The notes beneath the pieces are model-generated. The model searched no databases. It saw only the letters and a list, made by a program, of their open reading frames with translations, and was not told the origin of the DNA. From Halobellus captivus (lineage in GTDB: Archaea > Halobacteriota > Halobacteria > Halobacteriales > Haloferacaceae), in assembly GCF_007655485.1 (NCBI RefSeq), contig NZ_VJXQ01000002.1, positions 259,812 to 323,811 of the forward strand: a stretch of 64,000 nucleotides of DNA, read 5' to 3'. Shown piece by piece: positions 5,366 through 42,692 of the stretch (position 1 is the first letter of the stretch; every line of letters starts with the position of its first letter). A program made the position numbers and the translations under genes.

Positions 5366-5476
5366 GACCGACGCGTTGCCGCACGGATGTGCGTCAATCG
5401 CGCTGACTGCACGGCCGCGCGTCGGTCGTGTCGTCCCCGTGTCGTCCGTGCCGAACCGTAACACGCCCGTTCGGGC

Positions 5477-5517
5477 GAAAGAAAACCGTTAAAAGTCGCC
5501 GCAGGGTGTTGTGAGGT
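5477..5517 (+). promoter_or_regulatory. rpl11 promoter, 44-base block shared with the zinc-finger/EF-1 beta operon
   Basis: The TATA-like CCGTTAAAAG (5486-5495) is embedded in a block that, counted through the start codon (5477-5520), matches 9824-9867 at 37 of 44 positions without gaps; 22 of the first 23 are identical. The spacing to the ATG is the same in both. Confidence 0.7.
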
Positions 5518-5994: not shown

Positions 5995-6040
5995 AGCTCC
6001 GTTCGATTCTGCACGTCACAGCGCACGTCGCTGCTGTGGA

Positions 6041-6063
6041 TTCGATCCCCCGGCGGGTCTTTT
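6041..6063 (+). terminator. Possible terminator after rpl11
   Basis: A GC-rich run (CCCCCGGCGGG) is followed by TCTTTTC at 6058-6064, about 60 bases after the rpl11 stop. Archaeal termination relies on U-rich tracts, and a separate promoter follows, so termination here is plausible but not certain. Confidence 0.35.
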
Positions 6064-6200
6064 CGTCACCAACAGTACCCCAGAGCCGTGCGGCCGTCAC
6101 GCGATCCGGTGGTTTCCTCGCCGGAACCGTGCCGACCGTTCCCACAGATCTGGCGTCTCACCCGCGAAAACCGGCACGAGGAGGGATCTGCTTCGACGGA

Positions 6201-6206
6201 CTTAAG
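6201..6206 (+). promoter_or_regulatory. TATA box for the rpl1-rpl10-rpl12 transcript
   Basis: CTTAAG at 6201-6206 would place the transcript start near 6226, leaving a leader of about 70 bases before the rpl1 ATG. This matches the long-leadered L1-L10-L12 transcript described for Halobacterium. Confidence 0.65.
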
Positions 6207-6225
6207 GCCGCCATACCCGTTCGAT

Positions 6226-6294
6226 TCGACGAGACAGGCAGACGCCTGTTTCACTGACCCGTAGGAGCAATCCTGCGTACTACGGAGGTGAATA
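6226..6294 (+). promoter_or_regulatory. rpl1 mRNA leader, candidate L1 autoregulatory site
   Basis: The leader contains a perfect six-base hairpin ACAGGC/GCCTGT (6234-6249) and a second small stem around GGAGCAATCC. It ends in a strong GGAGGTG ribosome-binding site (6284-6290) five bases before ATG 6295. L1 proteins of archaea are known to bind their own leader through a mimic of the 23S L1 site. That this leader contains such a site is inferred from position and length, not proven by the fold. Confidence 0.5.
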
Positions 6295-6933
6295 ATGGCA
6301 GATACGATAGTTGACGCAGTCTCTCGCGCACTCGACGAGGCACCGCCGCGGAACTTCCGCGAAACGGTCGACCTCGCCGTGAATCTGCGCGATCTCGACT
6401 TAAACGACCCGTCGAAACGTGTCGACGAGTCTGTCGTTCTCCCGTCCGGTACCGGACAGGAGACGCAGATCGTCGTCTTCGCGAGCGGTGAGACAGCGCT
6501 CCGAGCGGAGGACGTCGCCGACCAGGTTCTGGACGGCGACGACCTCGAAGAGCTCGGAGACGACACCGACGCGGCAAAAGACCTCGCCGACGAGACCGAC
6601 TTCTTCGTGGCCGAAGCCAGCATGATGCAGGACATCGGCCGCTTCCTGGGGACGGTTCTCGGTCCGCGCGGTAAGATGCCGACGCCGCTTCAGCCGGACG
6701 ACGACATCGTCGAGACAGTGAATCGAATGAAGAATACGGTGCAGCTCCGCTCCCGCGATCGTCGGACGTTCCACACCCGCGTGGGTGCACAGGACATGGA
6801 CGCCGACGAGATCGCGGACAACATCGACGTCATCATCCGTCGTCTCGAGGCGAACCTTGAGAAAGGTCCGCTCAACATCGATTCGATGTACGTGAAGACG
6901 ACGATGGGGCCGTCCGTGGAGGTCGAGGCATGA
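6295..6933 (+). CDS. rpl1: Large-subunit ribosomal protein L1 (uL1)
   Basis: 212 residues of archaeal L1. The segment [20 protein letters not shown] near residues 114-132 is the conserved L1 signature around the rRNA-binding loop, and [13 protein letters not shown] closes the protein. It forms the mobile L1 stalk at the E site and in archaea represses its own operon by binding the mRNA leader. It overlaps the next gene by four bases (ATGA), so L1 and P0 translation are coupled. Confidence 0.98.
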
Positions 6934-7973
6934 GCGAAAGTGCCTCCGCCCGACGAACGGAGATCATCCCCGAGTGGAAGAAAGAGGAAGTCGCCGAACT
7001 CGTCGAGTTCCTCGAAGGCTACGAATCCGTGGGCGTCGTCGACGTCGCCGGTATTCCGAGCCGACAGCTCCAGAGTATGCGCCGCGAACTCCACGGCAGC
7101 GCGGAACTGCGGATGAGCCGTAACACGCTCACCGTCCGCGCGCTCGAGGACGTCGACGACGGGCTCGAAGAGCTCGTCGACTACGTCTCGGGACAGGTCG
7201 CGCTCGTGGGCACCAACGACAACCCCTTCGGGCTGTACAAGCAGCTCGAAGCGTCGAAGACGCCCGCACCGATCAGCGCCGGAGAGATCGCGCCCAACGA
7301 CGTCGTCATCCCCGAGGGTGACACGGGCGTCGACCCCGGCCCGTTCGTGGGCGAACTCCAGCAGGTCGGTGCCGCCGCGCGCATTATGGACGGTTCGATC
7401 CAGGTCACCGAGGACTCGAAAGTTCTCGAGGCGGGCGAGCCCGTCTCCGTGGAACTCGAAGGCGTTCTCGGGGAACTCGGCATCGAGCCGAAGGAGGTCG
7501 GTCTCGACCTCCGCGGCGTCTTCTCCGAAGGCGTCCTCTTCGAGCCCGACGAGCTCGCGATCGACGTCGACGAGTACCGCGCGGACATCCAGTCCGCCGC
7601 CGCGGCCGCACGGAACCTCTCGGTCAACGCGGGTTACCCGACGGCGCAGACCGCGCCGACGCTGCTCGCGAAGGCCGCTGGCGAGGCGAAGGCCCTCGGG
7701 CTGTTCGCCGCCATCGAGGACCCCGACGTGCTGCCCGATCTCGTCGCGAAGGCCGACGCGCAGGTTCGCGCGCTCGCCGCCCAGATCGACGACGACGAGG
7801 CGCTCCCGGAGGAACTCCGGGGCGTCGAGGCACCCGCACCGGCCGCCGAGGAGGCGGCCGACGCGGACGAAGACGAATCGGCTGACGAAGACACAGAAGC
7901 AGAAGCCGACGCCGACGACACCGACGACGATGACGACGACGGTGCCGAAGGCCTCGGCGCGATGTTCGGATAA
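6930..7973 (+). CDS. rpl10: Ribosomal stalk protein P0 (L10, uL10)
   Basis: 347 residues. The N-terminal rRNA-binding domain opens with [14 protein letters not shown]. The central archaeal/eukaryal insertion lies around residues 110-180. Then come helical L12-dimer binding segments and an acidic hinge (a long run of Asp/Glu around 310-338) ending GLGAMFG. That tail resembles the L12 C-terminus and recruits translation factors. Its ATG overlaps the L1 stop, and the L12 gene follows after 18 bases. Confidence 0.98.
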
Positions 7974-12374: not shown

Positions 12375-13241
12375 ATGACAGATTCGACGGTTGACGCCGC
12401 GGCCGACCTTCGCGATCCCGACGACCTGCGTCGGCGGGCGGGCGTGCGCGGCGATCCCGACCGCGATCAGCACTTTCTTGTCGACGATCGAGTGCTCGAT
12501 CGGATTCCGAGCTACCTGCCGGACGACGCCGACACGACGCACCTGCTCGAGATCGGCGGCGGCACGGGCGCGCTCACGGATCGGCTCCTCCGCGTCGCCG
12601 ACGAGGTGACGGTCGTGGAGCGCGACCCGCCGCTTTCGGCGTTCCTCCGCGAGGAGTTCCGCGAGGCGGTCGACGCCGGACGGCTGCACGTCGTCGAGGG
12701 CGACGCGCTCGACGTCGACGTACCCGACTTCACAGCGTCAGTCTCGAATCTCCCGTACGGCATCTCCTCGGAGATCACGTTCCGGTTGCTCCCGGCGGAA
12801 CGCCCGCTGGTGTTGATGTTCCAGCGGGAGTTCGGCGAACGGATGGCCGCGGAGCCCGGAACCGACGCCTACGGTCGGCTGTCGGTGAGCGCCCAGCATT
12901 ACGCTGACGTCGAAGTCGTCGAGATCGTGCCGCCGACGGCGTTCGACCCCGCACCGGCCGTCGAGAGCGCGATCGTCCGCCTGCGGCCCAGAGCGCCGGA
13001 GTACGTCGTCGACGACGAGGCGTTCTTCTTCGACTTCGTGAAGGCGCTGTTTACCCAGCGGCGCAAGACGATCCGAAACGGGATTCGGAACACGGCGCAC
13101 ATCTCGGGACTCGAAGACCCGGAGGCGGTGGTCGACGCGGTCGAGTCAGCCGACGGGGATCTGCTCCGGGCGCGGGCTGGCTCGCTCACGCCTGCTGAGT
13201 TCGCCGAACTGACCGCGATCGCCGACGAACACGGCCGCTGA
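12375..13241 (+). CDS. ksgA: 16S rRNA adenine dimethyltransferase KsgA/Dim1
   Basis: 288 residues. The SAM-binding loop GGGTGALT lies at residues 61-68, the acidic residue binding the ribose follows (VVERD), and the catalytic NLPYGIS motif is at 125-131. The basic C-terminal domain (FTQRRKTIRNGIRN) contacts rRNA. It dimethylates the two adjacent adenines in the 3' terminal loop of 16S rRNA during small-subunit maturation. The MscS gene follows after 12 bases. Confidence 0.96.
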   Translation: MTDSTVDAAADLRDPDDLRRRAGVRGDPDRDQHFLVDDRVLDRIPSYLPDDADTTHLLEIGGGTGALTDRLLRVADEVTVVERDPPLSAFLREEFREAVDAGRLHVVEGDALDVDVPDFTASVSNLPYGISSEITFRLLPAERPLVLMFQREFGERMAAEPGTDAYGRLSVSAQHYADVEVVEIVPPTAFDPAPAVESAIVRLRPRAPEYVVDDEAFFFDFVKALFTQRRKTIRNGIRNTAHISGLEDPEAVVDAVESADGDLLRARAGSLTPAEFAELTAIADEHGR

Positions 13242-13253
13242 GGGGACACCAGC

Positions 13254-14669
13254 ATGTCCGAACTACTCCAGACGGGAATCGGAATCAACGGGATCGGCAA
13301 CGCCCTCTCGGGACTCTCGGAGGTGGTGCCGACGTTCACCGGCCGGATCGCTGTCACCTTCGCGATCGGCGTGGCCGTGATGGCGTTTCTCGCCCGGACG
13401 GACCACCTCCACGAGGCCGCCCCGGAGCGATTGGAGTCGACGGCGTGGCACCTCGTCGTCACGCTCGGGACGATGGCGATCGCCACGGGTGCTGGGCTCG
13501 CGATCGTCGGGCTCTGGGGGCTCTCGGACGAACTGTTCGTCGTCTTTGGGACGAGCTACGGCCCGGAGACGCTCGTCAAAGTCGGCGTCTCCGTGCTGTT
13601 CCTGATCGGCGCATACACGATGACGGGCCTGGTCAAACAGTTCGTCGACGAGTTGGTGGATACGCGGTCGTCGATCGGCGAGCACGAGCGCGAGATCGCG
13701 TACAGGCTGGGACAGGTCACGCTGTATCTCCTCGCGCTCACGATCATCCTCTCGCTGTGGAACGTGAACGTCGGCGGATTCCTCGTCGGCGCGGGGTTCC
13801 TCGGCATCGTGATCGGGATGGCCGCCAGACAGACGCTCGGGGCGATGCTCGCCGGGTTCGTCCTGATGTTCTCCCGCCCGTTCGAGATCGGAGACTGGAT
13901 CCAAGTCGGCGAGCACGAGGGCATCGTCACCGACATCACTATCGTCAACACGCGAATGCAGACGTTCGACGGCGAGTACGTGATGATCCCGAACGACGTC
14001 GTCTCCTCGGAGAGCCTCGTCAACCGGAGCCGAAAGGGCAGACTCAGAATCGAGGTCGAAGTGGGCGTCGACTACGACGCCGATCCCGAACGCGCCGCCG
14101 ATATCGCGAAAAAGGCCGTCACGACGCTCGACGATCCGATGAGCGTTCCCACGCCGCAGGTGGTCTTCAAGCGGTTCGGCGACTCGGCCGTCGTCCTCGG
14201 CGTCCGCTACTGGATCAACAACCCGAGCGCCCGGCGAAAGTGGCGCTCGCAGACGGCCGTCATCGCCGCGGTCAAGCAGGCGTTGAAGGAGGAGGGCATC
14301 AAGATCCCGTTCCCGCAGCGGGAGTTGACGGGCCGACAGGAATCCGGCGGGTTGGTCCTCGCTGGCGATTCGCGGCCGCCGGAGGACCAGATCGAGGACG
14401 GACCGTCCGAGAGCCGAACTGACGGCGTGCCGACCGAAGCGGGGTCGGAAAGCGAACGTTCATCGGCGGCACAGACCGACGGCGTCGCCGACGCCGAGCG
14501 GTCGGGGGCGCGGTCGAACGGTGAACCGAAGGGGACATCGGACGCGAAAGAAGAGAAATCTGACGCGGAGAAAGAACAACCGAGGACGGAAACCAAACAG
14601 TCCGAGACAAAAACTGACGGCGTTCCCGATCCGGCGCAGCCCGACGACGCGGGCGGGAATCAGTCGTGA
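13254..14669 (+). CDS. MscS-family mechanosensitive channel with long acidic tail
   Basis: 471 residues. Membrane segments lie around residues 25-45, 63-88, 103-125 and 148-175. The pore-lining glycine/alanine helix follows (GFLGIVIGMAARQTLGAMLAG), then the MscS beta domain beginning FEIGDWIQVGEHEGIVTDI. The last ~110 residues (from about 360) are hydrophilic, rich in Ser, Glu, Asp and Lys, and likely disordered. The channel relieves turgor at hypo-osmotic shock. Its stop overlaps the GTG of the following methylase. Confidence 0.92.
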   Translation: MSELLQTGIGINGIGNALSGLSEVVPTFTGRIAVTFAIGVAVMAFLARTDHLHEAAPERLESTAWHLVVTLGTMAIATGAGLAIVGLWGLSDELFVVFGTSYGPETLVKVGVSVLFLIGAYTMTGLVKQFVDELVDTRSSIGEHEREIAYRLGQVTLYLLALTIILSLWNVNVGGFLVGAGFLGIVIGMAARQTLGAMLAGFVLMFSRPFEIGDWIQVGEHEGIVTDITIVNTRMQTFDGEYVMIPNDVVSSESLVNRSRKGRLRIEVEVGVDYDADPERAADIAKKAVTTLDDPMSVPTPQVVFKRFGDSAVVLGVRYWINNPSARRKWRSQTAVIAAVKQALKEEGIKIPFPQRELTGRQESGGLVLAGDSRPPEDQIEDGPSESRTDGVPTEAGSESERSSAAQTDGVADAERSGARSNGEPKGTSDAKEEKSDAEKEQPRTETKQSETKTDGVPDPAQPDDAGGNQS

Positions 14670-15319
14670 GCGACGAGACGAAACGAGACCTCGCCGGTCG
14701 GCGAGGCGTCGAGACGAGCGTGTATCAGCCAGCCGAGGACTCTCGGCTCCTCTCGGAGGCGATCGGAGCGCGGGGACGGGGCCGACTGCTGGAGGTCGGG
14801 ACGGGATCGGGTTGGGTGGCTTCTCAGGCGGTCTCGGTCGACGCCGTGTCGGCGGTCGTCGCGAGCGACGTCAACCCCCACGCGTGTCGAGCGGCGCGTG
14901 AACGGGCGCTGGAGCCCCGCGGATCGACCGAGTCGCGGAGGGCCGAAGTGCCGCGGTTCGACGTCGTCCGCGCCGACCTCCTCGCGCCGTTCGTCGACGA
15001 CGCGTTCGACACCGTCGCGTTCAACCCGCCGTACCTCCCCACCGATCCCGACAACGAGTGGGACGACTGGATGGAACGCGCGCTCTCGGGCGGTGAATCG
15101 GGACGCGAACTGATCGATCCGTTCCTCGACTCCGTCGGGCGCGCCCTCGCGCCCGACGGAGTCGTGTTGCTCCTCGTGAGTTCGCTCACGGGGTTCGACG
15201 CGGTTGTCGAATACGCCGAAGCGCGCGGTTTCGACCGCGAGGTCGTTGTCGAGGAGTCGTATCCCTTCGAGACGCTCTCGGTGCTCGCGCTGACCGCCGC
15301 GGACGGAAACGGAGCGTAA
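14666..15319 (+). CDS. HemK2/PrmC-like protein methyltransferase
   Basis: 217 residues. LLEVGTGSG (residues 41-49) is the SAM loop and NPPYLP (120-125) is the glutamine/asparagine methylation motif of HemK-type enzymes. Archaeal and eukaryal members (Mtq2 type) methylate the GGQ glutamine of class I release factors, which is the likely role here. The start is GTG at 14666, overlapping the MscS stop by four bases. Lysine methylation has been reported for related proteins, so the substrate stays inferred. Confidence 0.88.
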   Translation: MSDETKRDLAGRRGVETSVYQPAEDSRLLSEAIGARGRGRLLEVGTGSGWVASQAVSVDAVSAVVASDVNPHACRAARERALEPRGSTESRRAEVPRFDVVRADLLAPFVDDAFDTVAFNPPYLPTDPDNEWDDWMERALSGGESGRELIDPFLDSVGRALAPDGVVLLLVSSLTGFDAVVEYAEARGFDREVVVEESYPFETLSVLALTAADGNGA

Positions 15320-31188: not shown

Positions 31189-32250
31189 TCAGGCGAACTG
31201 TTCGCGGTCCGGAACCCCGTCGCGGCCGAGGAGGATCTCCTGGGCCTCGACGTCCTCGAAGGCCGCCACCAACCCGCCGATCTCCAGCACGCCGTCGTCG
31301 GTTTCCAGACGCAGCGACGCGACCTCTTCGGACGCTTCCAGCGTGGCGGTCTGGACTTCGCCCTCGACGATCACGGGTTCGCCGGTCTCGACGTCCCGCC
31401 CCGTGATCGAGGCGTAAAACGGTCCGTTCAGTTCGCGGACGTCCTTCACGGCCCTGCGGATCGACGCGTAGCGCCGAGGGAACGGTCGACGCTTGCCGTC
31501 GGCGGCGAGCACTTCGGCCGTCGACCACAGGACGGTTCCGAAGAAGCCCGAGACCAGAAAGCCGAGCGCCGAGCGGTTGAAGATGACGCCGTAGCGGTCG
31601 CGGTCGTCGCGCAGGGCGTCTTGCGTCGCGTAGATCGAGTAGTTGCCGTCGGCGACGGCGAGAACCGGCGTGGTGATCCCCCGGCGAGCGCGTGCGACGG
31701 TGGCGACTTCGAGGTAGTCGAACTCGTCCGGATCCGGCGCGCGTGACAGCGGGGTCACGAGCAGGTCGACGCTCACGCCGTCGTCGATGGCGGCGGCGAG
31801 GTCCTCGCGGAACCTGCGGAGCAAATCCGGGGTGAGCGAGAGCACGAGTTCGTACTCGGCGCTCTCGATGATCTCTTCGACGTATCGCAGAATCGTCGAG
31901 CGGGACTTCACGAGGGACACGGCCTCGGTGTCTCGCGCGGGTGCGGTGTACCGCGCTTCCAACTCCGAGACGAGGCTGTCGAGCGACTGTTTCACGTTGC
32001 CGAAGGCGTCATTGGGTTCGACGGCGACGATCTTCATCGGGCGCGACTCCCTGAGTTCGACGAGGCCGCGGTCCGAGAGGCTTCGCACGGTATCGTACAC
32101 CCGGGGCTGCGGGATCTCCGTTCGGTCGGCGATTTCGGAGGCCGTGAGTTCGCCGTGTTCGAGCACGGCCAGGTACGCCTCGATCTCGTACTCGCCGAGG
32201 TTGAAGCGCTCTCCGACCCGCTCCAGCGTCGTGCGGAGTTCGTCTGCCAT
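31189..32250 (-). CDS. TrmB family transcriptional regulator
   Basis: 353 residues. An N-terminal winged helix (about 15-75; [38 protein letters not shown]) is followed by a dimer helix and a C-terminal effector domain with a phospholipase-D-like half ([22 protein letters not shown]) and a beta domain. TrmB-type proteins usually sense sugars and control sugar transport or central carbon genes. It lies 95 bases before priS on the same strand. Whether it regulates replication genes or acts elsewhere is unknown. Confidence 0.9.
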
Positions 32251-32436: not shown

Positions 32437-33249
32437 ATGGACGAGCACGGAGGGGACGAGGGACCGTCCGGCGTGTACGGTCGCATCGAGGAACTGACCG
32501 CGGCCGGGGAGACGGTCGCGCTCGCGACCGTGACGCGAGTAGACGGGTCTGCCCCGCAGGATCCCGGGGCGGCGATGCTCGTTCGCGCCGACGGGAGCAC
32601 GGAAGGAACGGTGGGGGGCGGAACGGTCGAAGAGCGCACGCGCAGGGCGGCGGTCGACGCGATCGAGGAGCGGACGCCGCGGACCGAACGCTGGGAACTG
32701 CGGCCCGAGGGCAACACCGGTATGGTCTGCGGCGGAGAGATGGACGTGTTCATCAACGTGATTCCAGGAACCCAACGACTGATCGTCGCGGGCGGCGGTC
32801 ACATCGCACAGTCGCTCGCACCGATGGCTGTCGAATTAGGATACGACGTTTTCGTCGTCGACGACAGAGCGGAGTTCGCCACGGAGACGCGATTCCCCGA
32901 CGCGGAGGTGCACGTCGACGACTACGACGCGGGGATCGAGACGATCGGCGTCACGGACAATACCGCCGTCGTCGTCGCCACGCGGAGCGGCCACTTCGAC
33001 CGCGTCGCCTCTCGGGAATCCCTCGAACGGGGGGCGTACTACGTCGGTCTCGTGGCTTCCGACACAAAGGCCGAACGCGTCTCCGAGGGACTGCGAGAGG
33101 ACGGCGTCGCCGAAGACGATTTCGAGCGGTTCCATTCGCCGGTCGGGCTGGACCTCGGCGGGGGAGATCCGGCGGACGTCGCCCTCTCAATCCTCGCAGA
33201 ACTCAACCGCGTCCGAAACGGACTCACGCCCGGTTCAGTCGATTCCTAG
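32437..33249 (+). CDS. XdhC/CoxI-like molybdenum cofactor maturation protein
   Basis: 270 residues. The N-terminal XdhC domain shows TVTRVDGSAPQDPGAAMLV (about 31-49) and GTVGGGTVEE (57-66). The C-terminal Rossmann domain begins LIVAGGGHIAQSLAP (about 107-121). XdhC-type proteins hold and sulfurate the molybdenum cofactor and insert it into molybdenum hydroxylases. The PaoABC-like enzyme genes follow after 271 bases with their own promoter. The usual XdhC cysteine of the GGC-type loop is not seen here. ATG 32437 agrees with the TATA position. Confidence 0.9.
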   Translation: MDEHGGDEGPSGVYGRIEELTAAGETVALATVTRVDGSAPQDPGAAMLVRADGSTEGTVGGGTVEERTRRAAVDAIEERTPRTERWELRPEGNTGMVCGGEMDVFINVIPGTQRLIVAGGGHIAQSLAPMAVELGYDVFVVDDRAEFATETRFPDAEVHVDDYDAGIETIGVTDNTAVVVATRSGHFDRVASRESLERGAYYVGLVASDTKAERVSEGLREDGVAEDDFERFHSPVGLDLGGGDPADVALSILAELNRVRNGLTPGSVDS

Positions 33250-33347
33250 CCGCAGACGTCTTGGTCCCGCCGATATATCGGTTTCCTGACTGTTTGGATT
33301 CCGCAGATATCTAGATTCCCAGATCGTCTGGAATCGGCTCCGTCACT
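33241..33347. repeat. Degenerate 16-17-bp tandem array after the xdhC-like gene
   Basis: Units beginning G(A/T)TTCC or similar start at 33241, 33264, 33281, 33297, 33314 and 33331. The last four periods are 17, 16, 17 and 17 bases. The first unit overlaps the TAG stop of the xdhC-like gene. The rest of the gap to 33486 has no visible gene. Confidence 0.65.
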
Positions 33348-33486
33348 CGCCGAGAGCCACCGATCCCACGTGAACGGGTTCCTTTCGTCAGGTGGGGCAC
33401 TTGCTTCCAACACCACTTGCTCTGGATAGCAATCGAGCGGGCCGAGATCAGTGAAAATTCCACCGGTGTCCCCTTCCGGAGGCCGA

Positions 33487-33496
33487 ACCTATATGA
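33487..33496 (+). promoter_or_regulatory. TATA box for the molybdenum hydroxylase operon
   Basis: ACCTATATGA at 33487-33496, about 29 bases upstream of ATG 33521. It supports a separate transcript for the three structural genes. Confidence 0.6.
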
Positions 33497-33520
33497 ATGT
33501 GTGTGAAAGATAATCAAGGT

Positions 33521-34171
33521 ATGTCTACGACAGACGTACCGGACGAGTCGGAGCCGGGGGGAAGCGACGACTCGGGAGGACCATCCCGCCGCGATATCAT
33601 CAAAGGGACGATCGGTGGGACGCTCGTCGCCGCAAACGCCTATCTGTTCAACAATATCAGGCAGACGTCGGCGCAGGGCGACGGGACACCGGGGGTCCGA
33701 GAGCGGTTCTCGAATCAATTGAAACTGACAGTCAACGGTCGCGAGCGCTTCGTCAGAGTCGAAGATCAGGAACGCTTGGCGGAGACGCTCCGATCTAAAC
33801 TCGGGTTGACCGGAACGAAGTTCGGCTGCGATCGGGCGATGTGCGGTGCATGTACCGTACAGATCGAGGGCGATCCGATCTACAGCTGCACGTACTTCAC
33901 GAAAGACGCGGTCGGCAAGGAGGTCACGACGGTCGAAGGGCTGTCGGAGGGCGGTCAACTCCACCCGATTCAGGAGTCGTTCATCGAGGAGCTGGGCGGC
34001 CAGTGCGCGTTCTGTACGCCTGGGATGATTATGTCCGCGAAGTCGTTGCTGGAGGAGAACGGAGATCCCACGCGCGAGGAAGTCAAAGACGCCCTCGAAG
34101 GGAACCTCTGTCGCTGTGGCAACTACGAGAACGAGATCGAGAGCGTGCTCACAGCGGCCGAACGGATGTGA
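33521..34171 (+). CDS. Tat-exported [2Fe-2S] subunit of a molybdenum hydroxylase (PaoA-like)
   Basis: 216 residues. A polar N-terminus leads to the twin-arginine motif PSRRDIIKG (R23, R24) and a moderately hydrophobic segment (about 29-44), a Tat signal. The plant-type ferredoxin domain binds one cluster via C103, C108, C111 and C123. The C-terminal helical domain binds the second via C162, C165, C197 and C199. E. coli PaoA carries the same signal and exports the folded heterotrimer. No lipobox cysteine is visible, so soluble or anchored by the uncleaved signal are both possible. The large subunit begins six bases after its stop. Confidence 0.93.
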   Translation: MSTTDVPDESEPGGSDDSGGPSRRDIIKGTIGGTLVAANAYLFNNIRQTSAQGDGTPGVRERFSNQLKLTVNGRERFVRVEDQERLAETLRSKLGLTGTKFGCDRAMCGACTVQIEGDPIYSCTYFTKDAVGKEVTTVEGLSEGGQLHPIQESFIEELGGQCAFCTPGMIMSAKSLLEENGDPTREEVKDALEGNLCRCGNYENEIESVLTAAERM

Positions 34172-34177
34172 TCGTTC

Positions 34178-36607
34178 GTGTCTGAACACAACTACGTCGG
34201 AAACGATTTCGAGGTACCGGACGGCCGAGCGAAGGTAACGGGCGAGGCGAAGTACGCCGACGACTACCAGTTCGACAACCTGCTGCACGCGAAGACCGTC
34301 AAAAGCCCCTATGCACACGCGAGGGCCAGGAGTATCGACACGTCCGCGGCGGAGGCGATGTCTGGCGTCGAGGCGGTCATCACCCACGAGGACGTTCCGG
34401 ACGCGGCGATCGGGGAACCGGTGCTGGCCGAGGAGCCCCTGACGTTCGGCTATCCGGTCGCCGCGGTCGCCGCAACCGACGAGTACACTGCGGCCGCCGC
34501 CGTCGAAGCGATCGAGGTCGATTGGGAGGTCCTGGACCACGTCGTCGATCCCATCGAGACGCTCAAGCCAGGCAGCCCGAACGCGCGCCCCGAGGGGAAC
34601 GTCCCGACCGGCGAGGCGGGAGGCGAGGGCGCGGAAGGGCAGGGCGGAGCGGAGGCCGCCGCCGACACGATCAAGTGGGAAAACGCCGACTTCAGCGGCG
34701 ATTTCCCCGAGGACCCCGGCGACTTCACGATGGAGTGGAACTGGGGCGACGTCTCGGAGGGGTTCGAGAACGCCGAGACGATCTACGAAGACACGGTCAA
34801 GGCACAACCTCAGCCAACGAATCCGATGGAGCCCCGTTCGACCGTCGCCGAGTGGGGCACCGACGGACACGTCACGATCTGGGGCTCCAGTCAGAGCATC
34901 AGCCTGACGCATACGGGCGTCGCCGGAATGATCGAGAAACCGCCGACGGAGGTCACCTTCATCTGCAACTTCGCCGGTGGCGGCTTCGGTTCCAAGGGGA
35001 CCGCATACCCGCAGATGGCCGTTCCGGCGTTTCTCTCCCGGGAGGTCAACCGCCCGGTAAAGATCCGCGGAACCCGCCGCGAGGAGTTCCACTGGGGCAA
35101 CGGCCGCGCCACGTACATTGCGCGGACGCGGGTCGGCCTCGACGGCGACGGGAACATCACCGCAATGGAGATCGACGCCGTCGGCGACGCCGGAGCCTAC
35201 TCCGCCGACGCGCTGTCGACGCTCAGTTCCGGGTTCAACTCGCTGACGCAGTGTTGGCAACCCGAGACGCTCCGGTTCCGCGGCATCGGCGTGTTCACGA
35301 ACACGCCAAAACGATGGCCGCAGCGGGGTCCCGGACAGAACCAAGCGGCGTTGGCCATCGCTCAAGTCATCGACGAGGCGGCGAAACAGGCGGGCTTGGA
35401 CCCGCTGGACGTCTGTCTGCAGAACTCCCCCGAGAACAGAGGACCGGCGGGCGCAGAGCGACTCCCAATGACGAGCGCGTATCTCGGGGAGGCCTACGAA
35501 CTGGCGGCCGAGGCGATCGACTACGAGGAGAAGCGAGCCCGTTCGGGGACCCGTGAGGGATCGAAGGTGTACGGCGTCGGGATCGCGTCGGCGTCCCACC
35601 AGTCCGGCTACATCGGGTTCGACGGCCTCGTGGTCGTCCACACCGACGGCACCGTCGAGGTGCGGCAGGGTGCGGGGAACCTCGGCACCGAGAGTTTCGC
35701 CGCGGTCGCTCGGATGGTCGCGGACACGATGGGCGCCGACTGGGACGACGTCGAGGTCTCGTGGGGCAGCAGCGACAAGTCCTCGTTCACCCTGGGGCAG
35801 TTCTCTTCGAACACGACGTTCACCGAGGGGCTGGCAAACGTGAAGGCCGCCGAGACGGCCGTTCAGTACCTGAAAGAACTGGCCGCACAGGAACTCGGGG
35901 GAACCGCCGACGCGTACAACGTCGAGAATCACGAGGTCGTCCACGGGCAGTCCGGAGAATCGATCTCCTTCGCCGAGGCCGCTCAGGCGGCCGTCGATGC
36001 AGGCGGCAAGTATACGGCCGAGGAGATCCCGGAACAGTACCAAGAGAGTCTCGTCCCCCTGACGATCGCCGCTGCGAGCGACGCGGTGGGACAGGGGCTC
36101 GTCGCCTTCGGCAAGAGTACCGGCGAAGACCTCGACGGGTTCGTCACCTCCTTCGCCGGGGCGATCGCGGAAGTCTCGGTGGACCTAGAGACCGGCAAGG
36201 TCGTCGTCGAAGAGATGGCGAACTACAACGACTCCGGGACGGTGATCCACCCCGAGAGCTTCAAGGCCCAAGTCGAGGGCGGGGCCATCCAGGGGATCGG
36301 CTACACCCTCTTCGAGCAGTACCGCCACGATCAGGACACCGGTATTCCGGTGAATACGGACCTCTACAAGAGCAAGCCGCCGTCGATCCACGACTACGTC
36401 TCCGGCGACCTTCACGTCGGCGCGGTCGGCGAGCCCGACCCCTTCGGACCCTTCGGGGCCAAAGGTGTCGGAGAACCGCCGTACGGGGCGGCGTCTGGCG
36501 CGGTCGCAGCGGCGATCAAAGACGCCCTCGGCACGAGCTTCAGCGAGTTCCCTGTCACTCCCGACAAGGTGCTTGAGAAGGTCCGCGCAGGGGAGGTGGA
36601 CAGCTAA
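34178..36607 (+). CDS. Molybdopterin-binding large subunit of a xanthine dehydrogenase/aldehyde oxidase family enzyme (PaoC-like)
   Basis: 809 residues from a GTG start. The N-terminal 'hammerhead' domain shows KVTGEAKYADDYQF. GGGFGSKG (267-274) and RGPGQNQ (R383) contact the cofactor, and GAKGVGEPP near the C-terminus contains the catalytic glutamate (about E766). An acidic Gly-rich insertion lies around residues 130-190. The CSFR active-site motif of form I CO dehydrogenase is absent, so an aldehyde or N-heterocycle substrate is more likely. It lacks its own signal and probably rides out on the Tat signal of the small subunit. Substrate unknown. Confidence 0.92.
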   Translation: MSEHNYVGNDFEVPDGRAKVTGEAKYADDYQFDNLLHAKTVKSPYAHARARSIDTSAAEAMSGVEAVITHEDVPDAAIGEPVLAEEPLTFGYPVAAVAATDEYTAAAAVEAIEVDWEVLDHVVDPIETLKPGSPNARPEGNVPTGEAGGEGAEGQGGAEAAADTIKWENADFSGDFPEDPGDFTMEWNWGDVSEGFENAETIYEDTVKAQPQPTNPMEPRSTVAEWGTDGHVTIWGSSQSISLTHTGVAGMIEKPPTEVTFICNFAGGGFGSKGTAYPQMAVPAFLSREVNRPVKIRGTRREEFHWGNGRATYIARTRVGLDGDGNITAMEIDAVGDAGAYSADALSTLSSGFNSLTQCWQPETLRFRGIGVFTNTPKRWPQRGPGQNQAALAIAQVIDEAAKQAGLDPLDVCLQNSPENRGPAGAERLPMTSAYLGEAYELAAEAIDYEEKRARSGTREGSKVYGVGIASASHQSGYIGFDGLVVVHTDGTVEVRQGAGNLGTESFAAVARMVADTMGADWDDVEVSWGSSDKSSFTLGQFSSNTTFTEGLANVKAAETAVQYLKELAAQELGGTADAYNVENHEVVHGQSGESISFAEAAQAAVDAGGKYTAEEIPEQYQESLVPLTIAAASDAVGQGLVAFGKSTGEDLDGFVTSFAGAIAEVSVDLETGKVVVEEMANYNDSGTVIHPESFKAQVEGGAIQGIGYTLFEQYRHDQDTGIPVNTDLYKSKPPSIHDYVSGDLHVGAVGEPDPFGPFGAKGVGEPPYGAASGAVAAAIKDALGTSFSEFPVTPDKVLEKVRAGEVDS

Positions 36608-36609
36608 CC

Positions 36610-37599
36610 ATGCAACAAGATATGATCCCGCCGCTCGAGCACATCGACGCCACGAGCGTCGAGCACGCCGTGCGGCTCTTAGGCGAACACGGCAGTGACG
36701 CGGCAACGATCGCTGGAAACACCGACGAGATCAACTGGCTGAAGAACCGCGACCGCACGCCGGAAGTGCTGGTCGACCTCAAGCCGATCGAGGAGCTGAA
36801 AGAGATCGAAGAGACGAGCGACGGCGGGCTCCGAATCGGCGCGCTCGCGACGCTCTCGGACGTCCAGAACCACGACGCGGTCAACGACGGGTATTCGATC
36901 ATCGCGGACGCGATGGGCGAGATCGCGACGCCGCAGATCCGAAACCAGGGGACGATCGGCGGTAACCTCACGCAGGATTCGCGCTGTTGGTACTACCGCG
37001 GCGGGTTCGACTGCTACCGCGCGGGCGGGAATACCTGCTATGCGATCACCGGCGAGTCGAGCGACCACGCGGTCACCGACTACTCGCGGTGCATCACCGC
37101 GCACCCGTCAGACGGGGCCGTCGCGCTCATCGCACTCGACGCCGAGGTCGTCGTGCGCGGACCTCGAGGAGAGCGACGCGAGCCGCTCTCGGAGTTCTTC
37201 GTCGGCCCCGAGGACAACATCACCGTGATGCACGACCTCGCACACGACGAGATCCTCACTCATATCGAGGTTCCCAGCGACTGGCGCGGCACGAACTTCT
37301 ACTTCGAGAAGGTCCGTGGGCGGGACGCGTGGGACTTCGCGATCGGAAACATCGCCGCCGCGGTCAAAACGAGCGGCGGAACCGTTTCGGATCTCCGCCT
37401 CGTCGCCAACGGGTTCGCGCCGACGCCCAAGCGGCTTCGGACCGCCGAACGGTCGATTCGCGGGAGCCGACTCTCCGAAGGCAACATCGCGTCCGCCTCG
37501 GAGAACGTGCTCCCGAACGCGAGACCGCAATCGGACAACGAGTACAAGCTGAACCTCGCGGACGGACTGGTCAAGCGGGCGCTGAGTAACGTCGCCTGA
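36610..37599 (+). CDS. FAD subunit of the molybdenum hydroxylase with an extra [4Fe-4S] site (PaoB-like)
   Basis: 329 residues. The N-terminal FAD domain has TIAGNTDEINWLKNR (33-47) and QIRNQGTIGGNL (109-120). Directly after comes a cysteine-bearing insertion with C126, C135, C143 and C161, ending HPSDGAVAL. The same kind of insertion in E. coli PaoB and in 4-hydroxybenzoyl-CoA reductase binds a [4Fe-4S] cluster. The CO dehydrogenase C-terminal domain follows. It starts two bases after the large subunit and completes the heterotrimer. Confidence 0.92.
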   Translation: MQQDMIPPLEHIDATSVEHAVRLLGEHGSDAATIAGNTDEINWLKNRDRTPEVLVDLKPIEELKEIEETSDGGLRIGALATLSDVQNHDAVNDGYSIIADAMGEIATPQIRNQGTIGGNLTQDSRCWYYRGGFDCYRAGGNTCYAITGESSDHAVTDYSRCITAHPSDGAVALIALDAEVVVRGPRGERREPLSEFFVGPEDNITVMHDLAHDEILTHIEVPSDWRGTNFYFEKVRGRDAWDFAIGNIAAAVKTSGGTVSDLRLVANGFAPTPKRLRTAERSIRGSRLSEGNIASASENVLPNARPQSDNEYKLNLADGLVKRALSNVA

Positions 37600-37667
37600 G
37601 CAGCCCACACATCTTCCCCGATTCTTCTCCGGTTCTCCAAGGGTCACGAATCGCGGAGCGATGCGTC

Positions 37668-38363
37668 TCAGGAGTCCACCGCGACCGCCCGGGCGTCGAA
37701 GTCGTCGAACTCCTGTGCGAGACTGGGGACGTCGCCGACGGTGCGGAACGTCACGGTGAACGGAACCGAGTCGCCGGGCGAGACGTCTCCGTTCGGTCTC
37801 GTGGTTCGAACGCCGATCACGTTGTCCTCTTCGTCGTAGAATGCGACGACGATTTCGGCCGCCCGCGACTCGCGACCCTCGTTACGAACGGTCCCGGAAA
37901 CGGAGATACGGTTCTGTGAGCTGTCGGCGACCGCCGCATCGACGGAGAACTCACCGTCGCTGGCTGTCGTTCGTTCCGTGGTGAGAGAGACGTTGTAATC
38001 GTCGACCTCCTCACTCGTGTCGGCGTGGATATCGAAGGGTGCAGCGTCTCCGGGCGCGATCGGTTCACCCAGGACGCCGCCGACCGCTTCACCGACTACC
38101 TCACCATCGCGGTAGTAGGTGACCGTCACCGTCGCGTTCCCGACCGGATACGAGTGCCCGTTGTACACCTCGCCGACGACCGTGGGTCTGCCCAATCGGT
38201 CGAGGTGGTACGTCGTCCCTTCGACCGTGGCCTCGCCCGCGAGCGGTACTGAGGGGACGTCGATCTCGCTGTCGGTGACGATCAGTTCGACGCCGACGAG
38301 CCCCCCGTACGTGAGACCGGCCGCCAGGAGCGCACCGATGAGGACCGCCTTGGTGTCGACCAT
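37668..38363 (-). CDS. Membrane-anchored extracellular protein with beta-sandwich repeats
   Basis: 231 residues. MVDTKAVLIGALLAAGLTYGGLVGVELI is an uncleaved anchor or signal. Two beta-sandwich domains follow (about 50-135 and 136-225), each with a strand pattern like VTYYRDGEVVGEAVG/VAFYDEEDNVIGVRTT, typical of FxLYD-type domains of haloarchaeal surface proteins. It is convergent with the hydroxylase operon. Its role is unknown; it might bind a partner at the cell surface. Confidence 0.72.
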   Translation of the reverse strand: MVDTKAVLIGALLAAGLTYGGLVGVELIVTDSEIDVPSVPLAGEATVEGTTYHLDRLGRPTVVGEVYNGHSYPVGNATVTVTYYRDGEVVGEAVGGVLGEPIAPGDAAPFDIHADTSEEVDDYNVSLTTERTTASDGEFSVDAAVADSSQNRISVSGTVRNEGRESRAAEIVVAFYDEEDNVIGVRTTRPNGDVSPGDSVPFTVTFRTVGDVPSLAQEFDDFDARAVAVDS

Positions 38364-38556
38364 CCATCGGGACACAGGTTGGCGGCGGACATAAGCACTG
38401 GCCCCACCGTTCAGGTGCGAAAGCGACGAACTGCAGTGGCTCCGAAGTTACGGAGACGTTCTATCGTGGCCGAACAGTTGAACCGCACAGATGCCAGTAA
38501 CGCCCGGAGAGACGCCACTGTTTTCCCGATAGCGCCGCGACAGAAGAGGAGAGCCG

Positions 38557-38889
38557 ATGTCGTTCAACGTGTTCGAGATTCGAGGCGTATACCTCTTCGA
38601 GGGGAGCGAGTCTGTGCCACCGTCGCTGGAGGGCTACTACAACGACGCCGAAGATCGATACGAGATCCCGGAGAAGGGCGATTTGAATGCGCTCAGAAAC
38701 GAGTGGCGTCTCGTAACCGACCTCGACGCGTACCGCGTCGTCTTCGACCGCGACCCGCCCGCGGACGTACGCTCGACCGCGGTCTTCGTCGAGGAAGGCC
38801 CGATCCGAACGACCCTTCTCTGTCCCGACGAGGCGGCGGTCGACCGGGCGCTCGAAGCGGGCGGACGGTTGGTCGAGGGCGAAACATAG
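38557..38889 (+). CDS. Small soluble protein, unknown function
   Basis: 110 residues: MSFNVFEIRGVYLFEGSESVPPSLEG, then mixed alpha/beta sequence ending in acidic ALEAGGRLVEGET. It has no cysteine pair, signal or membrane helix, and I recognise no family. The codon pattern looks genuine (strong third-position GC) and it is the only good frame in this stretch. Confidence 0.55.
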   Translation: MSFNVFEIRGVYLFEGSESVPPSLEGYYNDAEDRYEIPEKGDLNALRNEWRLVTDLDAYRVVFDRDPPADVRSTAVFVEEGPIRTTLLCPDEAAVDRALEAGGRLVEGET

Positions 38890-38988
38890 CTCCGGCTGTC
38901 GCGAAAGCGAGGAGCGCGCTTGATACCTCGTGAGTGATGAGAGAAAGTGAGAGAAAAGCGCGCGAAGGGCAATCGGAGCGCCGCTGTT

Positions 38989-39408
38989 TCAGTTGCTCAC
39001 CCGAACCGAAAGATCCGCGCCGACGAGGCCGAACACCGACCAGGCGATCGTCAGCACCAACAGCATACCGAAGACGACCGGCCACAGCGTCACGCCGAAC
39101 GTCCCCGTGATGAAGCCCGACCACGCGCCGAACAGCCCCGCCACGAGGACGACGAGGGCCGTCGTGATCGCGGCGAACGCTCCGGCGACGACACCAGCGA
39201 CGCGTTCCTCGCCGACGGGTGACAGCCGTGCAGCGACGGTTCCGCCGATGAGCGGCCATCCGACGAGAAGAACGACGTAGCCGACAACGCCGCCGACCTG
39301 CAGACCGAACAGGTGAAGCAGGCCTAATACGGTGATCACCGCGCCCCCGACGACGTCGGGGGAGGCCTTCAGGCCGCTGGAATCTGAGTGTGTGACGTTT
39401 GTTGCCAT
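38989..39408 (-). CDS. Four-helix membrane protein (DUF5518-like), unknown function
   Basis: 139 residues from ATG 39408. Helices lie around 16-34, 35-54, 64-92 and 96-125, rich in Gly and Val, with the loop ARLSPVGEERVAGVVAGAFAA that recurs in haloarchaeal DUF5518-like proteins. A minus-strand TATA (GTATTTTTATCC, near 39431-39443) is correctly placed. No catalytic residues are apparent. Confidence 0.75.
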   Translation of the reverse strand: MATNVTHSDSSGLKASPDVVGGAVITVLGLLHLFGLQVGGVVGYVVLLVGWPLIGGTVAARLSPVGEERVAGVVAGAFAAITTALVVLVAGLFGAWSGFITGTFGVTLWPVVFGMLLVLTIAWSVFGLVGADLSVRVSN

Positions 39409-39492
39409 AGTTCGCACATCACGTGGCGAGTGGATAAAAATACCGCCGTGACACCCACCGATACCAGTCGCAAAGCGACAAACCGCACGGGG

Positions 39493-40092
39493 CTATCGTG
39501 GCTCGTATCGCTTCACGAGTTCCCAGTACTCCGCGGGCGTGTCCACGTCGGCGAAGATCCGTTCGTCGTCGACGGCGATCTCACGGGTGTCGGTGTCATC
39601 CGCCCGAACGACCGCTCGCGCGCCGCGGTCCTCGGGCGCGGATTCGAGCGCATCGAACGTGCTCGCCGTGAAAAGCGGCGGATGGCCGCTCCCGCCGTCG
39701 ACGGTGGGAACGATGACGTCGCCGCCGTCGGCGGCCGCGGCTGCGAGTGTCTCGACGACAGCGGACGGGGTCACCGGGCAATCGACTGGGTTCAAGAACA
39801 CGCCGTCGGCGTCGCGCTCGTCCGCGTACTCGACGACCACTTGTACCGATGAGAGCATCCCCGACTCGTACGCTGGGTTCTCGCGAACGGTAGCGCCGGA
39901 GAGGTCCGCTCGGGCGCGAACCTCCGCTGCTTCATAGCCGAGAACGACGACCGGTTCGATTCCCGCCTCCGAATACGTCTCGACGAGTCGTTCGACGAAG
40001 CGACGGCCGTCGAACGTCAGCAGGGGTTTCGGAAAGCCGCCCATCCGCGTCGATTTTCCGGCGGCGGTGATCGCGGCGACGAACCTCGACAT
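39493..40092 (-). CDS. MocA-like molybdenum cofactor nucleotidyltransferase
   Basis: 199 residues of the MobA-like NTP transferase fold. ITAAGKSTRMGGFPKPLLTFDG (8-29) is the nucleotide-binding loop, VFLNPVDCPVT (about 98-108) holds the metal-binding aspartate, and GGSGHPPLFTAST (about 131-143) resembles the GHP motif of MocA rather than MobA. MocA makes molybdopterin cytosine dinucleotide, the cofactor used by PaoABC-type enzymes, so its position next to such an enzyme makes sense. It is the last gene of a four-gene operon. Confidence 0.85.
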   Translation of the reverse strand: MSRFVAAITAAGKSTRMGGFPKPLLTFDGRRFVERLVETYSEAGIEPVVVLGYEAAEVRARADLSGATVRENPAYESGMLSSVQVVVEYADERDADGVFLNPVDCPVTPSAVVETLAAAAADGGDVIVPTVDGGSGHPPLFTASTFDALESAPEDRGARAVVRADDTDTREIAVDDERIFADVDTPAEYWELVKRYEPR

Positions 40093-40093
40093 C

Positions 40094-40507
40094 TCACTCG
40101 CGTTCGAGGTGATCCGTCAGTTCGTCGAGGAAGAAGAATTTCATCATCACCGACTGGAACACCGCCATCCCGTTGAGATTATCCGCCATTCGAGACGTGA
40201 CCGCGTCCTGTTCGGAAAGTAGCTGCAGTACGGTTCGAGCCTCCTCGATTTCGGGTTCCATATCGTCGAGAAACGACCGGTACGTCGGCGTGTCGAACTC
40301 GTCGTGGTGGTCGGCGACGGCCAGCGCGGCCTCGTAACCGTCTGCGAGCCCCGCCTCGAAATCCGCGACGTACTCTTTGGTCTGACCCGTCCCCGACTGT
40401 ACCGTCTCCCGATCGATCCCCTCTCCCGCGAAGGAGATCAGGAACTCGTAGGCGATCTCGACCTGCTCGATCGCGTCACGAAGATCCGTTACTGGCGTCT
40501 CAGGCAT
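40094..40507 (-). CDS. Small acidic helical protein of the molybdoenzyme accessory operon
   Basis: 137 residues, nearly all helical by composition: TPVTDLRDAIEQVEIAYEFLISFAGEG, then SGTGQTKEYVADFEAGLADGYEAALAV, and a C-terminal hydrophobic, methionine-rich patch (FQSVMMKFFFLDEL). No cysteine or signal. It lies one base upstream of the MocA-like gene and 26 bases after the fusion regulator gene. A chaperone-like role for the enzyme is conceivable, but I do not recognise the family. Confidence 0.72.
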   Translation of the reverse strand: MPETPVTDLRDAIEQVEIAYEFLISFAGEGIDRETVQSGTGQTKEYVADFEAGLADGYEAALAVADHHDEFDTPTYRSFLDDMEPEIEEARTVLQLLSEQDAVTSRMADNLNGMAVFQSVMMKFFFLDELTDHLERE

Positions 40508-40533
40508 GGCACTCAGTTGCGTAGCTCTCCGTA

Positions 40534-41688
40534 TTACTCTTCGGGAACCCGCGTCCACGCGCCGGTTGTTAGCCGTCTCACGTCACCCTCGCGCTTCAAC
40601 CGGTGGAGGGTGATTCGGCAGGTCTCCTCGGTGACGTCGAGGCAGGCACTGATCTCGGTGGTGGACGCCGACGGGAGGGAGTCGAGCACGTCGATCGCGC
40701 GTTCGCCGTGGTCTTCGGGGCTGAAACTCTCGGCGTTCATCGGTGCCGCCCCGTACTGCTGCATCACGTTTCGGCTCTGCGTCTCGGTCGTTTGCTCCGT
40801 CTCCCCGAGGTCGGGGTCGTACTTTCTGACCGCATCCCGAAGCGCGTCGAACCCCGCTGCGCCGTCGACGACCGTGGTCCCGCTGGGTCCGTCCACGCGG
40901 TAAACGGGGGCGGTGAACACCGCGTCAGGTGTTCGTGGCGAGTTCGAGACTTGCGCGTTGTCGTCTCGCGGGCCATCCTCGTCGCTGTCGTCTTGCGGGC
41001 CATCCTCGTTGGCGACGTCTTGTGAGTCTCCCCCGTCGACGTCGGCTGTTGGGTCGGCTCCGTCGACGCCCGTTTCCGGGTCTGCGGCCTCTGCCCTGCC
41101 ATCCGCACCGACTCCGTCGTCCTCGGGACTGTCGAGGGCGCTCCGAGGCCGGAGCGGCTCTCTACCGGGCGTACCGCGGACATCGAACGCAGACAGCTTC
41201 GCGACGGTCTGCCTCGCGAGTTCGAGATCCCGTCCAACGGCCGCGGTGGCCCGGCGTGAACCCACCGCGTCCGCTACTGATCGGCCATCCAGACCGGGAA
41301 CTACCTCGGCTGCCTCGCGTATCGCCTCCGGTGTCGCCGTCGGCTGACCGGCCGCGAACGTCCGATCGGCGATCTCCCTCGCGAGCGCGAACGCCGCGTC
41401 GGTTCCGCCCAGTTCACGAGCGGTGGCGACCGCCTCACAGGCCGTCCACGACGACGGGAATCCGTCGGCGGTAACCGATGAGTCCACCGGCATACCGCCA
41501 CCGTCGGAACGTGAGCGTATCTCGGCCGTAGACTGGGTGTTGTCGAGCGAATGCGGAACAGAGACAGCACATCGGTACGTGATATCGACATCTCCGAACA
41601 CGTACTCCGCTCGCGATCGGGTCGGTCGCCGTCGGTACGCGTCGATCGATAGCGGATCCGAAAACAGCGTGATCGAGACGTCGGACAT
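40534..41688 (-). CDS. Thioredoxin/DsbA-like protein fused to a winged-helix domain
   Basis: 384 residues. The first ~165 begin VSITLFSDPLSIDAYRRRP and resemble a DsbA/FrnE-type thioredoxin fold with a helical insertion (EAIREAAEVVPGLDGRSVADAV), but the CxxC active site is missing. An acidic, Gln/Asp-rich linker (about 185-255) has short internal repeats (EDGPQDDSDEDGPRDD). The C-terminal ~65 residues look like a winged helix (HGERAIDVLDSLPSASTTEISACLDVTEETCRITLHRL). It may regulate or chaperone the molybdoenzyme. The domain calls are my reading of the pattern. Confidence 0.65.
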   Translation of the reverse strand: MSDVSITLFSDPLSIDAYRRRPTRSRAEYVFGDVDITYRCAVSVPHSLDNTQSTAEIRSRSDGGGMPVDSSVTADGFPSSWTACEAVATARELGGTDAAFALAREIADRTFAAGQPTATPEAIREAAEVVPGLDGRSVADAVGSRRATAAVGRDLELARQTVAKLSAFDVRGTPGREPLRPRSALDSPEDDGVGADGRAEAADPETGVDGADPTADVDGGDSQDVANEDGPQDDSDEDGPRDDNAQVSNSPRTPDAVFTAPVYRVDGPSGTTVVDGAAGFDALRDAVRKYDPDLGETEQTTETQSRNVMQQYGAAPMNAESFSPEDHGERAIDVLDSLPSASTTEISACLDVTEETCRITLHRLKREGDVRRLTTGAWTRVPEE

Positions 41689-41732
41689 AGGTATCCGTCG
41701 GTGTGCGGTGAAAAAAGAGATGGCGGTCCCAG

Positions 41733-42692
41733 TTACTCGCGTCCGTCTGCGGGCTCCTCGCGCGCGGAGTCGCCGCCGTCGGTGGCTTTCGAGCCGCCGA
41801 TCTGCCAACTCGTCGGCGAGTATTTCTCGGCGTACTCCTCGACGGTGACGCGTCCGGTGATCATACTCTTCGTGATCGCCCACTCGTTCGGGCGGAGCGC
41901 GAAGTAGACGTGGCCCATCACCAGCGCCAACAGCGCGACGGCGAAGAAGTCGTGGAAGACGAAACTCCACGCGATCAGCCCGGGCGCGTCGGCCGTCCCG
42001 AGGCCGAACTGAACGCCGAGGAGGGAGAACTCACGCGTCGCCCCCCACAGCGGTTCCAGACTCACCCGTCGAAGAAGAACGAACCCGGTCGCGATCACGG
42101 CGAGAGAAGCGCCAGTGACGCCCCAGTGTAAGAGCTTCTGTGCGCTCGGGTACTCGAACTGCCTGGGGTATTCCTCGGTCTGTCCGATCAGGTTCCTGAA
42201 CCGTCGCCAGAGGTCTTTGGCGTCTGCGACGCCGAACCACATCTTCGACCACGTGCCCTTGTACGCCACGTGCGCAACGTGGAAGATCACGTATCCGATG
42301 AGGACGACCGCCGATACGATGTGTACGTCGAGCCACGACAGCCCCGGCACCGCCCGGAGTGTCACCTCCTTGTTCATAATCACGAAGCCGGAGAGCATCA
42401 GCGCAAAAATCGAGATCGCCATCACCCAGTGAGAGACCCGTTGTGCCAGAGAGAACCGTTTGATGTCATCGACACCTTGCTCCTCCAGTGACCGCTCGAC
42501 CTCCGACTTCGATGGATCGTCCGGCCGCGTCGTGTGGTCAGTCGGATTCCACAGCTCGCGTAGTATGTAATGGACCAAAAACGTGAAGGTCCCAAGGAAT
42601 GCGAACACGAGCAAAATGTCCCAGCTCAGGCCGACAATGACCTCACGCCCCGCCCGTTGCGCGTATCTGAATATATCGATTCCGAGAGGCAT
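41733..42692 (-). CDS. b-type cytochrome, formate dehydrogenase gamma-like
   Basis: 319 residues with five likely membrane helices (around 22-43, 87-106, 123-144, 190-208, 243-265). Histidines at 88, 124, 138, 141, 189, 247 and 261 include the heme b ligand set of the FdnI/PhsC superfamily, and RPNEWAITKSMITGRVTVEEYAEKY is the characteristic C-terminal region. Such subunits pass electrons from periplasmic Fe-S enzymes to quinone. As first gene of the accessory operon beside a Tat-exported molybdoenzyme, it is the likely electron outlet. That pairing is inferred. Confidence 0.88.
   Translation of the reverse strand: MPLGIDIFRYAQRAGREVIVGLSWDILLVFAFLGTFTFLVHYILRELWNPTDHTTRPDDPSKSEVERSLEEQGVDDIKRFSLAQRVSHWVMAISIFALMLSGFVIMNKEVTLRAVPGLSWLDVHIVSAVVLIGYVIFHVAHVAYKGTWSKMWFGVADAKDLWRRFRNLIGQTEEYPRQFEYPSAQKLLHWGVTGASLAVIATGFVLLRRVSLEPLWGATREFSLLGVQFGLGTADAPGLIAWSFVFHDFFAVALLALVMGHVYFALRPNEWAITKSMITGRVTVEEYAEKYSPTSWQIGGSKATDGGDSAREEPADGRE

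Follow-up and report, generated by a model that had tools for sequence, protein, structure and literature searches.

The aldehyde oxidase PaoABC of Escherichia coli is exported as a trimer in which PaoB and PaoC are escorted by the twin-arginine translocation (Tat) signal of PaoA (PMC4273604), and its physiological electron acceptor has been reported as unknown (PMC3958847). The membrane-bound aldehyde dehydrogenase of acetic acid bacteria is a molybdoprotein-cytochrome complex that reduces ubiquinone via hemes (PMC9171043). In formate dehydrogenase-N, FdnI binds two b-type hemes and has a site for menaquinone (PMC13397495). Here we describe a gene cluster in a 64,000-nucleotide stretch of the 3.35 Mb genome of the haloarchaeon Halobellus captivus (contig NZ_VJXQ01000002.1, positions 259,812 to 323,811; hereafter the window), in which the three subunits of a molybdenum (Mo) enzyme of the xanthine oxidase (XO) family are found together with maturation genes and a cytochrome b. 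We consider it likely that the cluster encodes an outward-facing, respiratory, aldehyde-type Mo dehydrogenase that feeds quinone via the di-heme cytochrome b.

The three-subunit enzyme and its cytochrome b

The XO-family domains of the iron-sulfur (Fe-S), Mo and flavin adenine dinucleotide (FAD) subunits all score above the Pfam cut-offs. The small subunit combines eight cluster cysteines with the motif SRRDIIKG, its match to the PaoA model extends over the signal region, and a twin-arginine motif of the form SRRxxIKGxIGG recurs in the small subunits of 8/8 loci (that of the window and those of seven other species), whereas none was found upstream of the Fe-S domain among about 30 other haloarchaeal XO-family loci with a neighbouring Fe-S subunit. 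Neither the FAD subunit nor the Mo subunit, which has a catalytic-type glutamate in GVGEPP, bears a Tat signal, and by analogy with PaoABC the whole trimer would be exported on the signal of its smallest member. In the FAD subunit, C126, C135, C143 and C161 align one-to-one with cysteines of E. coli PaoB and are kept in all eight loci; this four-cysteine loop is absent from E. coli XdhB and present in the aldehyde oxidases PaoABC and 5y6q. In 4-hydroxybenzoyl-coenzyme A (CoA) reductase and in PaoB-like proteins an extra [4Fe-4S] cluster is situated towards the FAD end of the electron-transfer chain, and the loop supports the presence of such a cluster here. The initial annotation, made from the sequence of the window, had described a Tat-type small subunit, a Mo subunit lacking a signal and four additional cysteines in the FAD subunit, and these three descriptions are borne out.

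The cytochrome b, the sole PF01292 gene of the window genome, scores 87.9 bits against a cut-off of 30.1 and does not reach the equivalogs TIGR01583 and TIGR02125. When a profile of seven orthologs was compared with the PDB, the only match was FdnI (1kqf_C), whose heme ligands H18, H57, H155 and H169 align with H88, H124, H247 and H261; all four histidines are invariant in the orthologs. Hydropathy indicates five transmembrane (TM) helices, and in all eight orthologs the loops predicted to lie inside carry 5-9 positive charges and those predicted to lie outside 0-3. Because of this charge pattern, H124/H247 are placed on the outer side and H88/H261 on the inner side of a predicted topology that is FdnI-like in its core, an arrangement that would fit electron transfer from the outside inward.

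Co-occurrence, maturation and accessory genes

Nine core genes, encoding XdhC, the Fe-S, Mo and FAD subunits, the FxLYD-domain, four-TM, MocA-like and helical proteins and the cytochrome b, were recovered by tblastn in 8/8 loci, packed within about 11 kb in each, including a reordered locus of another family (L044, genome G073) where the enzyme genes diverge from an adjacent cytochrome operon, in an order unlike that of Halobellus, and the set nevertheless stays together. Chance grouping is ruled out because the set is conserved in seven other species. Of 17 Halobellus genomes, 6 have orthologs of both the Mo subunit and the cytochrome b, and the remaining 11 lack the two alike. A survey of 391 genomes of the class found the Mo subunit (above 50% identity), the cytochrome b (at least 60%) and the helical protein (counted by strong matches) in seven genomes each, and these are the same seven. 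Among named species, the nearest relatives of the Mo subunit come from Halobellus rufus (92%) and H. clavatus (72%). Mere adjacency of the cytochrome by chance is excluded by this genome distribution, which matches that of the Mo subunit exactly. The co-occurrence is thus strong, but no formal probability is attached to it because the genomes are related. Weak matches to the helical protein in G045 and G409 lie inside a 791-aa reading frame, one that in G045 has a match to the Mo subunit as well, and were judged spurious. Relatives of the cytochrome were absent from a plasmid search. A profile run across 393 genomes of the phylum returned the window's own gene only; each genus being sparsely sampled, this result does not show absence outside the haloarchaea.

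All genes named by the initial annotation were found at the positions and on the strands it gave, though it had overlooked the FxLYD-domain and four-TM proteins, both of which belong to the core, and had left the 110-aa protein unmentioned. Its prediction that the cytochrome operon accompanies the enzyme holds for the cytochrome b, the helical protein and the MocA-like protein in 8/8 loci and fails for the fusion protein in G073; a separation of cytochrome and enzyme genes, which it had named as contrary evidence, was looked for and did not appear.

Dedicated XdhC and MocA-like genes, also proposed at the outset, are present in every locus. The MocA-like protein is 27% identical to E. coli MocA, with TAAGxSxRMG and GHPxLF common or nearly so; it stays below the MocA cut-off (TIGR03310, 111.7 bits against 186.45) and below that of its nearest model, the DVU_1551 equivalog NF045665. 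Its motifs (TAAG, GHPxLF) suggest a molybdopterin cytosine dinucleotide cofactor. In L044 the start of the FxLYD gene overlaps the XdhC stop by 4 nucleotides, and the FxLYD protein is therefore tied to the enzyme. The fusion protein joins a DsbA-fold domain without CxxC to a winged helix, its top Foldseek match being YjbH (E 2.7e-6) for a model of modest confidence (predicted local distance difference test, pLDDT, 64); because CxxC is missing and the fold is YjbH-like, a disulfide oxidoreductase is ruled against and an adaptor or regulator appears more likely. The helical protein is predicted by AlphaFold2 as a four-helix bundle (pLDDT 81.8), has strong matches only in genomes that possess both enzyme and cytochrome, and gave no match under E 0.001 in a fold search; because it has neither a signal nor a TM segment and co-occurs strictly, we guess that it is an assembly chaperone.

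Table 1. Genes of the cluster, with positions in the window
Product	Position	Strand	Evidence and distribution
XdhC-family molybdenum cofactor insertion/sulfuration chaperone	32437..33249	+	PF02625 (XdhC_CoxI) + PF13478 (XdhC_C); NF045664 sub-cutoff; 8/8 loci
Tat-signal [2Fe-2S]x2 small subunit	33521..34171	+	PF00111 (Fer2) + PF01799 (Fer2_2); R23-R24
Mo-cofactor subunit, XO family	34178..36607	+	PF01315 (Ald_Xan_dh_C, a/b hammerhead), PF02738 (MoCoBD_1), PF20256 (MoCoBD_2)
FAD subunit; additional Cys loop of [4Fe-4S] type (C126, C135, C143, C161)	36610..37599	+	PF00941 (FAD_binding_5), PF03450 (CO_deh_flav_C)
Membrane-anchored FxLYD-domain protein	37668..38375	-	NF038353 over cutoff; 8/8 loci; one N-terminal TM
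110-aa soluble protein	38557..38889	+	no family match; 7/8 loci, 52-72% identity; absent from G073 (L044), the most distant locus
Small membrane protein, ~4 TM	38989..39408	-	hydropathy; 8/8 loci; no Pfam/NCBIfam match
MocA-like nucleotidyl (NTP) transferase, CTP type predicted	39493..40092	-	PF12804 (NTP_transf_3)
Helical protein	40094..40507	-	likely ATG start 40507, GTG alternative 40558; 8/8 loci
DsbA/YjbH-like thioredoxin-fold + winged-helix fusion	40534..41688	-	7/8 loci (absent from L044); accessory, not core
Predicted di-heme cytochrome b, FdnI-like, 5 TM	41733..42692	-	PF01292 (Ni_hydr_CYTB)

Several neighbouring genes vary between loci. A TrmB-family (sugar-sensing) regulator at 31189-32250 (-) adjoins XdhC and may hint at sugar-dependent regulation; its occurrence, like that of a PAC2 gene flanking the window cluster, was limited to the four closest Halobellus loci. 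In four loci (L069:10774-11682, L070:9497-10297, L071:10365-11198 and L083:7911-8753) the gene for a second YjbH/DsbA-like protein adjoins that of the 110-aa protein; the window, L072, L073 and L044 lack it. In L083 (G258), two similar lipoprotein solute-binding-like open reading frames (ORFs), read by eye at 5143-7116 and 12767-14755 (+), flank the minus-strand part, the latter being followed by permease-like and ATPase-like ORFs. In H. clavatus, ORFs that by eye resemble SCO1, a TlpA-type thioredoxin and CcdA, a set expected for the assembly of copper or heme proteins, are located at L043:4974-6835, a few kb upstream from the cluster.

Proposed electron route and rival explanations

The motifs and their conservation can be assembled into the following scheme. 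In the cytoplasm, the MocA-like enzyme would make a dinucleotide Mo cofactor, which XdhC would sulfurate and then insert, and the folded Fe-S/Mo/FAD trimer would be exported by Tat on the small-subunit signal. At the outer face the enzyme would oxidize a low-molecular-weight substrate, most likely an aldehyde or N-heterocycle, passing electrons from Mo through two [2Fe-2S] clusters, FAD and the [4Fe-4S] cluster to the outer heme (H124/H247), from there to the inner heme (H88/H261) and finally, in the manner of formate dehydrogenase-N, to menaquinone close to the cytoplasmic face. The FxLYD and four-TM proteins are likely to assist in anchoring or assembling the complex, and the helical protein probably acts in the cytoplasm as an assembly factor. 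More tentatively, and with rather less confidence than we place in the quinone-linked dehydrogenase itself, an XO-family enzyme may here operate in an FdnI-type electrogenic half-loop, with oxidation outside, quinone reduction inside and two stacked b hemes between them, such that oxidation would build membrane potential, and with purpose-built FxLYD, four-TM and helical assembly proteins that would be new to molybdoenzymes.

Some observations weigh against the quinone-linked dehydrogenase: the similarity to FdnI is weak (E 4.6e-5), the cytochrome b lies on the strand opposite to the enzyme genes and does not form one operon with them, and the co-occurrence rests on about three lineages, represented by Halobellus, by G258 from a second genus of the same family and by G073 from outside that family. 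A different acceptor is suggested by G073, where a gene for a COX2/CuA-like lipoprotein (L044:5236-5775, minus strand), with a CTVPCSDGHTGM motif and an SATGC lipobox, directly follows the FAD gene; an alternative acceptor is therefore possible, and electrons might go to a copper carrier, CuA-like or halocyanin, in soluble or lipoprotein form, leaving the cytochrome b a lesser or assembly-related role. We regard this as unlikely: among the neighbourhoods inspected, the window included, G073 alone showed a CuA-like gene, but all eight loci encode the cytochrome b, with its heme ligands invariant.

The cytochrome b might instead serve a formate dehydrogenase or a different Tat dehydrogenase and owe its place in the cluster to chance or to shared maturation, which would accord with the fact that PF01292 cytochromes are best known as partners of formate dehydrogenase and hydrogenase, and with the presence of Fdh-alpha (TIGR01591 over cut-off) on another contig of the window genome. 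Fdh-alpha, however, occurs in 13/13 good-quality Halobellus genomes, about half of which lack the cytochrome, and its N-terminus has no Tat signal; since the cytochrome follows the Mo hydroxylase exactly and not formate dehydrogenase, assignment to the latter is disfavoured and we hold it to be highly improbable. Scarcely better is the prospect that the enzyme acts in the manner of 4-hydroxybenzoyl-CoA reductase, which is the best PDB match of the Mo subunit and the family of the best NCBIfam match of the FAD subunit, and whose additional [4Fe-4S] cluster and inverted flow are mentioned in reference 33 of PMC3958847. Yet all three subunits score far below the corresponding equivalog cut-offs (TIGR03193/03194/03195), a CoA thioester is unlikely as an external substrate, and the four-cysteine loop is equally a property of aldehyde oxidases, all of which makes this possibility very unlikely. 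The quinone-linked aldehyde-type dehydrogenase remains the reading that we prefer.

Comparison with known systems

The label "PaoABC-type", given by the initial annotation, stands for the architecture (layout, Tat signal and cysteine loop) and not for common descent, because the Mo subunit is 29% identical to PaoC and XdhA alike and the trees neither join it to PaoC nor reject such a union; descent is neither demonstrated nor excluded. In two trees the Mo sequences of the cluster form one fully supported clade on a long branch, outside the pair of PaoC and Rubrobacter, and a tree holding them with PaoC is not rejected (approximately unbiased test, p-AU 0.277). The Mo subunit moreover lies below every NCBIfam equivalog cut-off (NF041671, 240.8 bits against 1180).

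With E. coli PaoABC-PaoD the cluster shares the three-subunit layout, the Tat signal on the Fe-S subunit, the four-cysteine loop in the FAD subunit and an XdhC-like chaperone, but the E. coli gene cluster has no cytochrome, and the MocA-like, FxLYD, four-TM and helical genes are additions of the haloarchaeal one. A gene-linked cytochrome b offers a concrete acceptor candidate for an enzyme built like PaoABC. The likeness to 4-hydroxybenzoyl-CoA reductase lies in the solved structure closest to the Mo subunit and in the extra [4Fe-4S] cluster of the FAD subunit, whereas the haloarchaeal subunits fall outside its equivalogs; we know of no Tat export or cytochrome b for that enzyme. With the gamma subunit of formate dehydrogenase-N (FdnGHI) the cytochrome has in common its PF01292 family, the four aligned heme-ligand histidines and, as predicted, the core topology, although it possesses an extra N-terminal TM helix and is partnered by an XO-family FAD enzyme, while the catalytic subunit of FdnGHI belongs to the unrelated dimethyl sulfoxide (DMSO) reductase family. 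If the proposed route is true, the formate dehydrogenase-type redox half-loop extends to an unrelated family of Mo enzymes, and two to three uncharacterised haloarchaeal protein families become attached to molybdoenzyme assembly.

A search of open papers found no molybdenum hydroxylase with a cytochrome b partner, and to our knowledge no PF01292 cytochrome occurs in the aldehyde dehydrogenase of acetic acid bacteria. That enzyme resembles the proposed haloarchaeal one in facing the periplasm, in using molybdopterin cytosine dinucleotide and in passing electrons to ubiquinone through hemes, but as a rule it is partnered by a c-type subunit with three hemes, and heme b has been reported for the enzyme of Komagataeibacter europaeus (PMC9171043). 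Because a quinone-linked Mo aldehyde dehydrogenase is thus already known from acetic acid bacteria, the apparent novelty is limited to a di-heme cytochrome b of the FdnI type and to the gene set found in the archaea.

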